Positions 34,970 through 53,545 of a stretch of DNA of 64,000 bases are shown in pieces; the first letter of the stretch is position 1; each line of letters starts with the position of its first letter. The stretch spans positions 1,178,001-1,242,000 of the forward strand of contig REGP01000001.1 in the NCBI GenBank assembly GCA_004134995.1, read 5' to 3'. The position numbers and the translations under genes were made by a program. This DNA comes from Oxalobacteraceae bacterium CAVE-383 (GTDB lineage Bacteria > Pseudomonadota > Gammaproteobacteria > Burkholderiales > Burkholderiaceae_D). A model generated the notes under the pieces. It saw nothing but the letters and a program-made list of their open reading frames with translations. It ran no database searches and was not told where the DNA came from.

Positions 34970-35098
34970 AACCTTTTATTAATGGTTTTTGTTATTCTTC
35001 GTCGATACGGCTGTTAATTTACGTTGTGGCCATTTTACATGCCTGCATCTGTTTTGTTATCCGGACCCGTCTTTTTTTATTATTTACAGCCGCCAACC

Positions 35099-35947
35099 AT
35101 GCAAGACGCCATGACACAACCCTTACCGCTTGCGAATCGTACTGTCTTTTTCGTCTCGGACGGAACAGGTATTACTGCTGAGACCTTCGGCCATTCGGTG
35201 CTGACGCAGTTTCCGCTGCGCTTCAAACAGGTGCGGTTGCCCTTCATCGATACCATTCAGAAAGCGCATGACGCCACCCGCAAGATCAATGAGGCCTTTG
35301 TCAGTGACGGCTTGAAACCTATTGTCTTTTCGACACTGGTCAAGGCGGACCTGTCGCGGCTCATCCGCGCCGCCAACGCCAAGCATATGGATCTGATCCA
35401 GACCTTTGTCGAGCCGCTGGAGCAGGAACTTGAAATCAAGGCCAGCCATACCATCGGCGGCAGCCACAATACGGCCGATTCCGAAGAATATAAAAACCGC
35501 ATCGAAGCGATCAATTTTTCGCTGGCGCACGACGATGGCCAGTCGAACAAGAACCTGTCGGCGGCGGACGTGATCCTGGTCGGCGTATCGCGCTCCGGCA
35601 AGACGCCGACCAGCCTGTATCTGGCGATGCAATACGGCGTGAAGGCGGCGAATTATCCGCTGATCCCGGAAGATTTCGAACGCGAAAAGCTGCCCAGCGG
35701 CCTGCTGCCCTATAAAAACAAGATTTTCGGCCTGACCATTTCGCCGGACCGCCTGGCCGCGGTGCGCAACGAGCGCCGGCCAGGCAGCAAATATGCATCG
35801 CTGGAAAGCTGCCGTTATGAGATCAATGAAGCCGAGAAGATGATGCGGCGGGAGGGCATACGCTGGATGTCGTCGACCGCGAAATCGATCGAGGAAATTG
35901 CGGCGACGATATTGCAGGAAATCAAGACCGAGAACCGCGGGTATTGA
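35099..35947 (+). CDS. ppsR: PEP synthase regulatory protein (pyruvate, water dikinase kinase/phosphorylase)
   Basis: This bifunctional enzyme inactivates PEP synthase by ADP-dependent phosphorylation of an active-site residue and reactivates it by phosphate-dependent dephosphorylation. The 282-residue protein has the DUF299 signature: [20 protein letters not shown] at the N terminus and a P-loop-like [19 protein letters not shown] near residue 160. ATG at 35099 and ATG at 35111 are both possible; the second gives 278 residues, closer to E. coli PpsR. The gene is divergent from its substrate gene ppsA. A long hairpin element begins 15 bp after its stop codon. Confidence 0.95.
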
Positions 35948-35961
35948 TAAATAATATAAAT

Positions 35962-36084
35962 AAAAAGACGCTCTCGGGCGGGGAGTGGGTGTTGTACTTC
36001 GTTCGTGTCCCCCGGAGGCCTGCGGCTCCTCCTCCTTTACCTCACTGCGCACAACACCCACTCCCCGCCCGAGAGCGTCTTTTT
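35962..36084 (+). repeat. Long hairpin element with conserved loop, copy 1
   Basis: Two perfect 34-nt arms (35962-35995 and 36051-36084) enclose a 55-nt loop (35996-36050). The arms begin and end with A5 and T5, so this copy also resembles a bidirectional terminator. The inner end of the stem is GGGTGTTGT / ACAACACCC. Within the loop GGAGGCC-TGC-GGCTCC (36014-36029) forms a small hairpin, and CCTCCTTT (36031-36038) matches the 16S rRNA 3' tail. A second copy with the same loop but a different stem lies at 53410-53545 in reverse orientation. The family is not one I can name. Confidence 0.93.
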
Positions 36085-36110
36085 CACTGCCATGAAGAAT
36101 CTGGATAAAA

Positions 36111-36136
36111 AAAATGCCCGCATCAGCGGGCATTTT
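36111..36136 (-). terminator. Intrinsic terminator of the tRNA-Val/tRNA-Asp unit
   Basis: AAAATGCCCGC and GCGGGCATTTT form an 11-bp perfect stem with a 4-nt loop. On the minus strand a run of eight T follows. It lies 10 bp beyond the tRNA-Asp 3' end. Confidence 0.94.
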
Positions 36137-36146
36137 CTCTTTAACT

Positions 36147-36223
36147 TGGCGGAGCGGACGGGACTCGAACCCGCGACCCCCGACGTGACAGGCCGGTATT
36201 CTAACCAACTGAACTACCACTCC
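36147..36223 (-). tRNA. tRNA-Asp (anticodon GTC)
   Basis: The minus strand folds as a complete 77-nt tRNA: acceptor stem GGAGTGG / CCGCTCC with one G-U pair, D-arm with AGTTCAGTTGGTTAGA, anticodon loop CTGTCAC with GTC, TΨC arm GGGTTCGAGTCCC, and an encoded CCA. It follows tRNA-Val on the same transcript and ends before a strong terminator. Confidence 0.97.
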
Positions 36224-36267
36224 TTGGTACTGCAAACTAAATAGATATTTAGTCGATTCGACTGGTC

Positions 36268-36343
36268 TGGTGGGTGCTGAGAGGCTCGAACTCCCGACCT
36301 ACGCCTTGTAAGGGCGCCGCTCTACCAACTGAGCTAAGCACCC
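36268..36343 (-). tRNA. tRNA-Val (anticodon TAC)
   Basis: The minus strand folds as a complete 76-nt tRNA: acceptor GGGTGCT / AGCACCC, D-arm TAGCTCAGTTGGTAGA, anticodon loop CTTACAA with TAC, TΨC arm GGGAGTTCGAGCCTC, and encoded CCA. It lies between hupB and tRNA-Asp, an arrangement often seen in Burkholderiales. Confidence 0.97.
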
Positions 36344-53161: not shown

Positions 53162-53407
53162 ATGAAATCGTTATTCGGAAAACTTCTCGCCTCCACAATG
53201 TTTGCCGGCATGCTGGCCATCAGCGTACCGGCATCGGCCGCCCCTAATGGGCCGCCGGTCAACATTTTATGTCAAATGCTTCAAAATTCCGTGAACGCCT
53301 TGCTGCAGGTGGGTGAAGAGTCCGTGCTCGGTCAAGCAGCCGGCCTGGTCAACCAGATGGTCTCCATGGGCTGCCCGGGCGACATGATACCGATATTGCC
53401 GAGGTAA
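53162..53407 (+). CDS. Small secreted two-cysteine protein (B)
   Basis: The 81-residue protein has a strong signal peptide (LLASTMFAGMLAISVPASAA) and a mature part of about 53 residues with two cysteines (ILCQMLQ and MGCPGDM) 34 positions apart. The pattern LCxxLxxx…V…C matches the protein encoded at 51820. No function is recognised; a disulfide-stabilised periplasmic or secreted helix pair is likely. AGGAG precedes the ATG. The long hairpin element copy 2 begins 3 bases after the stop codon. Confidence 0.8.
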   Translation: MKSLFGKLLASTMFAGMLAISVPASAAPNGPPVNILCQMLQNSVNALLQVGEESVLGQAAGLVNQMVSMGCPGDMIPILPR

Positions 53408-53409
53408 GC

Positions 53410-53545
53410 CAGTCAAGGCGCCCTCAGGCAAGGCGTGAAAGGGTGTTGTGCGCAGTGAGGTAAAGGAGGAGGCAGCCGCAGGCCGCCGGAGGACACGAAC
53501 GAAGTACAACACCCTTTCACGCCTTGCCTGAGGGCGCCTTGACTG
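53410..53545 (-). repeat. Long hairpin element with conserved loop, copy 2
   Basis: Two perfect 40-nt arms (53410-53449 and 53506-53545) enclose a 56-nt loop (53450-53505). Read on the minus strand, the loop differs from copy 1 by two substitutions and one insertion. The stem is only partly similar: 53419-53436 (CGCCCTCAGGCAAGGCGT) aligns with 35969-35986 (CGCTCTCGGGCGGGGAGT) with five differences, and an extra GAAA (53437-53440) is present, all matched in the other arm. The apical hairpin is at 53471-53487. On the plus strand the loop carries AAAGGAGG (53462-53469). Confidence 0.93.

Follow-up and report, generated by a model that had tools for sequence, protein, structure and literature searches.

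Dispersed long hairpins with a conserved internal loop and covarying arms in Herbaspirillum and other Burkholderiales

The window, that is, the whole 64-kb stretch of DNA analyzed here, contains two long hairpins of the same kind. Copy 1 starts after a gap of 14 nt behind the stop codon of a ppsR-like open reading frame (35024..35947, plus strand; from the list of open reading frames, with the gene name taken from the initial annotation). It consists of a left arm of 34 nt (35962..35995), a 55-nt loop (35996..36050, plus strand) and a right arm (36051..36084) that pairs with the left arm with 100% complementarity; the arms are not assigned to a strand. Within the loop, the conserved core, in its pyrimidine-strand reading CGTTCGTGTCCCCC and CTCCTTTACCTCAC on the two sides of a smaller hairpin, spans positions 36000-36045. 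The purine strand of copy 1 (35962..36084, minus strand) is the one whose fold is apparently preserved across the family, as indicated by the wobble asymmetry described below. The gap that separates copy 1 from the tRNA genes contains a short hairpin of the ordinary type with a T-run (36115..36136, no strand assigned), which was identified by eye and is unlisted by a terminator- and promoter-type scan of positions 35700-36300; a similar hairpin is visible by eye in two other genomes, G029 and G030, both of which lack a copy at that site.

Copy 2 occupies approximately positions 53410..53545 on the minus strand, with the core at 53455-53501 in the orientation opposite to that of copy 1, and was extended by a repeat finder to 62 nt per arm with 84% complementarity. 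Its outer arm starts within a few nucleotides of the TAA stop codon (53405-53407) of a small open reading frame (53162-53407), so that the stop nearly abuts the hairpin; the 81 aa product has, by eye, a signal-peptide-like start. The initial annotation described copy 1 as a perfect 34-bp stem around a 55-nt loop and copy 2 as the same loop on the opposite strand, with two substitutions and one inserted base, and both descriptions proved accurate. Its description of the stem of copy 2 as a different one has to be corrected, because the stems are not unrelated: the inner nine stem pairs (GGGTGTTGT/ACAACACCC) are identical in copies 1 and 2, and farther out the two stems appear to have diverged from each other. 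Two stretches of 19-20 nt at the loop ends each occur twice in the window with at most 3 mismatches, with 0 occurrences expected from 100 shuffles, and the folding of both hairpins is 11.8 to 13.0 standard deviations better than that of dinucleotide shuffles.

We aligned 53 copies to construct a covariance model, which identified 90 copies, the loop of copy 1 among them, in the genome to which the window belongs (G000, Herbaspirillum, 4.12 Mb), and 90 again in a rescan of the window together with the regions retrieved around these copies. A unit, about 90-140 nt long, folds into a hairpin whose conserved part is an asymmetric, purine-rich internal loop, with the outer arms on one side and an apical hairpin of variable sequence on the other; the core, which is about 47 nt long and conserved over genera, reads on the purine strand GYGARGTAAAGGAGGA-(variable apical hairpin)-GGGGGACAYGARCG. 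Over the whole hairpin, 26 of the 28 pairs have changed on both sides, 88.0% of the cells are paired (62.6% in shuffled data), and the covariation score is 0.529 compared to 0.147 for the shuffles, none of which (0 of 500) reaches the observed value; slid structures score below 0.1. Within the core, two pairs covary, one of them being G-C in 111 copies, A-T in 27 and others in 2 (n=140), and the second one T-A in 44, C-G in 8 and other in 1 (n=53); the two are separated by two constant mismatches, which are of the G.A type on the purine strand. The middle letters (A or G) of two G runs are linked as well: A/G in 111 copies, G/A in 12, A/A in 6, G/G in 0 and other in 16 (n=145), which corresponds to GGAGG with GGGGG, the swapped combination, GGAGG twice, GGGGG twice and other words, respectively. 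A G-quadruplex in the loop, with GG-N-GG on both sides, was considered; the A/G covariation of the middle letters also fits an A.G pair. A possible Shine-Dalgarno mimic, AAAGGAGG, was noted as well.

The initial annotation proposed that the hairpins are either a structured RNA family or palindromic elements that are mobile, a proposal supported by the 90 copies in G000, the many carriers among Burkholderiales and the strong covariation. Neither of the two outcomes that it named as contrary to this proposal was observed, namely the presence of only two copies or the loss of complementarity between the arms, and the covariance-model search that it recommended recovered many copies with covarying stems.

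The mismatches in the arms carry information on which strand folds. Among 174 unique copies, 381 outer-arm cells are not Watson-Crick pairs; read on the pyrimidine strand, 299 of these are A.C or C.A, 20 are G.T or T.G and 62 are other combinations. The 299 A.C/C.A cells are G.T (G.U) wobbles on the purine strand, a total that is inflated by two positions at which the wobble is fixed in Herbaspirillum. With the fixed positions left out, the copies from outside Herbaspirillum retain 163 purine-strand wobbles, 21 reverse ones and 28 other mismatches, and the inner arm of the G000 copies retains 19, 5 and 12, respectively; over 36 pairs, the G000 copies have wobbles in the ratio of 65:16 and 95 other mismatches. 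Outside the two fixed positions, the wobble bias in G000 is weak. Outside Herbaspirillum, where copies lie between tandem genes, the bias is 30:4 when the genes read the pyrimidine strand and 32:4 when they read the purine strand (fixed positions left out). Because this bias is independent of the direction of the neighboring genes, it appears to be a single strand, the purine one, that folds, and the need of host mRNAs is not evidently the cause of this fold. The tandem copies of G000 (0:0 in the 14 copies of pyrimidine sense and 4:3 in the others) are too clean to tell.

The distribution of the family is patchy. A BLAST search of 34 Herbaspirillum genomes with a 76-nt core query yielded matches in three, namely G000, G029, a second Herbaspirillum with many copies, and G013, with one match. 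At the family level, the exact core pattern was found in 4 of 392 genomes (38 occurrences in G000, 17 in G029, one each in G013 and G341), with 0 matches for reversed-pattern controls. By this count, the family is rare in other Oxalobacteraceae, the group in which the initial annotation had suggested a search with the loop. At the order level, 14 of 300 genomes pass the E-value threshold of 1e-4, with per-genome counts that are lower bounds because at most 14 candidates were scored in each genome. Named genomes contain at least 98 stretches with the core pattern; the titles among the matches listed include Hydrogenophaga, Rhodoferax, Rhizobacter, Rubrivivax, Variovorax and a Herbaspirillum MAG, and most of the listed titles are of genera of the Comamonadaceae type. 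By the model, 13 named Burkholderiales genomes have 3-32 copies each. The nearest relative of G000 in a ppsR comparison, G030, has 0 model copies, and among seven further Herbaspirillum genomes scanned with the model, six have 0 copies and G013 has one. The 55-60 nt of printed flanks of this single G013 copy (L033/L371) are identical to the flanks at L101 and L136, both from Hydrogenophaga; hence this copy probably arrived by transfer, and the identity of the flanks suggests transfer together with the neighboring genes. Phages and viral contigs gave no match to the family, and plasmids gave one, in a dmp gene row: the conjugative Burkholderia anthina plasmid NZ_CP071828.1 (L395) carries a related hairpin, 83% identical over 51 nt, between two genes of a meta-cleavage pathway.

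Outside Herbaspirillum, many copies come in inverted pairs. In 91 scanned loci, all 48 close pairs (<400 nt) from outside Herbaspirillum, which include orthologous sites and hence are partly non-independent, have the same order, with the pyrimidine strands converging, and two Herbaspirillum pairs show the same converging order. The distance between the modeled ends is 59-66 nt in 21 of the 40 pairs with both genes called and ranges from 36 to 173; several genera repeatedly show about 147-156 from start to start (138 and 220 are exceptions), and the corresponding distances in genus g55 and in G558 are about 200-270. Unlike in many hosts outside Herbaspirillum, the copies in G000 are mostly single. 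An early sign of orientation bias outside Herbaspirillum was discarded, many of the apparent singles having proved to be paired once the model was applied. In G029, hairpin pairs that resemble one another in their arms and spacer are present at four loci (L038, L047, L053 and L057), seemingly a larger repeated unit that recurs.

With respect to genes, 47 of the 90 G000 copies lie in convergent and 34 in tandem contexts, and at most 8 in divergent ones; one copy borders the end of a contig, and no copy falls within a called gene. These counts come from a custom open reading frame scorer that misses small genes, and the number of divergent contexts is an upper bound because copy 2 was scored as divergent although the 81-aa open reading frame ends just before it. 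In the tandem contexts, the arm, assumed to extend 22 nt past the modeled part, begins 0-30 nt behind the upstream stop codon in 28 of the 34 copies, and the upstream stop is nearer than the next start in 33 of the 34. Without the final 80 nt that precede the start, the trend is weaker and still there (upstream stop nearer in 23 of 33, p = 2.5e-5). The orientation of the tandem copies shows no bias (14 vs 20, p = 0.39). In G000, the pyrimidine strand tends weakly to coincide with the G-rich strand (54 of 89, p = 0.06; 22 of 31 at strong local skew, p = 0.03). A cobalamin riboswitch was found near one hairpin copy (L030:1658-1881).

When double changes in G000 are scored against the subfamily consensus, transversions exceed transitions (210:115 and 192:170), and several G000 copies carry mirrored indels in both arms, for example, the 14-nt insert in L354 (by eye). 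Indels run through both arms in 13 of 25 and 16 of 21 cases, as counted in a loose alignment, of which we inspected only the named examples by eye; L343, with an 8-nt insert on one side only, goes against the mirrored rule. Mirrored indels can arise if one arm is copied from the other, whereas independent compensating mutations cannot easily produce them. At seven orthologous Hydrogenophaga-type loci (four titled Hydrogenophaga, two titled only Betaproteobacteria or Burkholderiales and one without a listed title), the core is 98.3% identical, the arms are 77% identical, and the flanks are 46-57% identical ungapped or 70-78% gapped, so that the letters of the arms are kept no better than the gapped flanks. 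With an eighth locus (L146) included, the replacing pair types at the orthologous loci are transitions in 7 cases and transversions in 2; given the preserved core and the prevalence of transitions, in-place selection on the core and the fold seems to be active too. The sites of three G000 copies were also compared with G030, where these copies are absent: the sequences are about 80% identical, ragged and too diverged for exact ends, and neither a target duplication nor a clean empty site could be demonstrated at these three sites.

Taken together, the evidence leans toward a mobile DNA palindrome over an RNA function. We tentatively favor, at slightly less than even confidence, a dispersed palindromic DNA element with a REPIN-like architecture, although not of the Y1/RAYT kind, the purine strand of which would be recognized in the folded form and the arms of which would be renewed by copying. 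Under this scenario, a host or element protein would recognize the purine-strand hairpin through the internal loop, and the recognized hairpin would spread as single-stranded DNA. The arms would only have to form a good stem and would be renewed one from the other, either by fold-back synthesis or by template switching during replication. The copies would survive mainly behind stop codons, where they would be harmless and could possibly stand in for a terminator. The mobile reading draws on the covariation, the wobble bias, the pairs of one order, the mirrored indels, the excess of transversions among double changes, the gene contexts and the lack of orientation bias in G000, and mobility is further suggested by the presence of 90 copies in G000 compared to 0 in G030 and 0 in six of the seven further Herbaspirillum genomes. 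Counted against it are the core that is 98% identical in place at the seven Hydrogenophaga-type loci while the flanks have diverged, which points to use in place, the low copy numbers in the 13 named genomes, the comparison of three sites with G030, which revealed neither a target duplication nor a clean empty site, and the weak wobble bias in G000 outside the two fixed positions. In addition, a search for an enzyme that moves the hairpins, covering REP-type Y1 in two copy-rich genomes, found none, and mirrored arms could result from ordinary template switching without mobility. A more specific version, that of a new class of mobile palindromes in which a non-Y1 protein binds the folded strand via the purine-rich loop, and copies are born perfectly paired by fold-back copying, with the arms drifting thereafter, appears rather unlikely.

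The main rival to the mobile DNA element is a cis-acting structured RNA, a possible reading to which we assign well below even probability. Here, the purine-strand hairpin would be part of 3' untranslated regions or would form a small transcript of its own, the GUAAAGGAGGA/GGGGGACA loop would bind a protein or the ribosome and would end or protect transcripts, and the inverted pairs would serve both directions. The G.U-type wobbles, the purine-purine covariation in the loop, the core conserved in place with mostly transitional replacement of pairs, and the tight placement behind upstream stop codons all speak for such an RNA, and so does the location of copies in the spacers of the dmp gene row and of a gene row that, from a translation, we take to be box-like. 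Furthermore, gaps that contain a copy less often have an ordinary terminator (4 of 66 vs 21 of 89 gaps without a copy, p = 0.004, pooled), although the depletion is not significant for tandem contexts alone (1 of 23 vs 15 of 70, p = 0.11). The terminator sample was centered on copies, with multi-copy loci left out and 23 of the 34 tandem copies used, and we regard the depletion as suggestive only. Conversely, the G000 copies have no orientation bias relative to transcription, the wobble bias outside Herbaspirillum is unchanged when the genes read the other strand, and no promoter-like site was found in 35700-36300. Rfam identified only the two tRNAs in the window at the gathering score, and in four copy loci searched by E-value, the only matches over the copies, all far below the cut-offs, were to eukaryotic miRNA models, a virus element (AEV_CRE), an lncRNA model (Six3os1_2) and isrG.

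It is improbable that the hairpins are an old repeat kept perfect solely by quasipalindrome template switching, with no present function or mobility. As stated in PMC8604942, template switching homogenizes the arms of inverted repeats and inverts their spacers. This process fits the mirrored indels and the transversions, and spacer inversion would also account for the random orientation; however, it leaves unexplained the strand-specific wobble bias, the 98% identity of the core in place and the fixed order of the pairs, as well as the presence of 90 copies in one species compared to none in the nearest relative analyzed. Finally, the hairpins are most improbable as ordinary intrinsic terminators that share a loop by chance: they do lie behind stop codons, and copy 1 ends in T5, but the combination of a GC stem, a small loop and a T-run was not found, the loop being large and internal and the T-run after the arm not being the rule in the copies displayed (by eye), the terminator scan lists none at copy 1, separate ordinary terminators adjoin copy 1 and the copy at L348:3850-4200, and the core is conserved over genera.

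Should the DNA reading be true, gene ends are the target of an undescribed enzyme that moves the hairpins; should the RNA reading be true, many Burkholderiales share an undescribed RNA-binding system. Under either reading, the wobble asymmetry and the mirrored indels provide direct tests of palindrome upkeep in genomes. In the literature outside subscription journals, none of the titles listed for these taxa on hairpins, small RNAs and repetitive or palindromic elements describes the family, and a text search with core strings returned unrelated matches only; the queried taxon names are absent from two REP surveys (PMC3733652, PMC12306157).

The hairpin family resembles the REP and REPIN sequences in that it consists of dispersed extragenic hairpins with many copies (90 in G000, none inside called genes) and with inverted pairs (48 of 48 in one order outside Herbaspirillum). 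REP elements form a strand-specific hairpin and favor gaps between convergent genes, and both traits are found in the present family as well. REPINs are moved by a Y1 transposase, and the RAYT gene is flanked by its repeat. However, G573 and G558, each of which carries at least 14 copies, have no Y1_Tnp match, a model scan of 17 Y1 loci (16 from copy-bearing genomes) found 0 copies, and Y1_Tnp is present in all 34 Herbaspirillum genomes, with or without copies (one match each, two in G016); a Y1 transposase is therefore an unlikely agent. In G000, Y1_Tnp is located at G000:C5:478193-478483, and the lowest scores among the 34 genomes are those in G000, G022, G029 and G030. The REP palindrome of 20-40 bp carries a GTAG or CGTC tag at one end (cf. 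PMC3733652). No constant tetranucleotide was seen by eye at the hairpin ends; in contrast to REP, the present family has a conserved internal loop instead of a terminal tag, a length of about 90-140 nt compared to 20-40, and arms that differ within one genome. With no tag and no Y1 match in two carrier genomes, membership in the REP/RAYT group is rejected.

BIMEs and other composite palindromic repeats share the alternating orientation and regular spacing; we know of no sequence relation between them and the present family. Integron attC sites are imperfect palindromes with variable arms, one folded strand of which is recognized, and are located behind stop codons, all of which is reminiscent of the hairpins described here. 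The attC sites end in the boxes RYYYAAC and GTTRRRY; across the present family, by eye, there are no fixed end boxes and the arm letters vary among genera, which does not fit this assignment. Template-switch quasipalindromes show the same mirrored changes in both arms, but the arms of the present hairpins flank a conserved, strand-specific core that is spread over many loci. We file the family as a kind of dispersed bacterial palindromic repeat, to our knowledge the only one to combine a conserved internal loop, an inferable folding strand and concerted change of the two arms.
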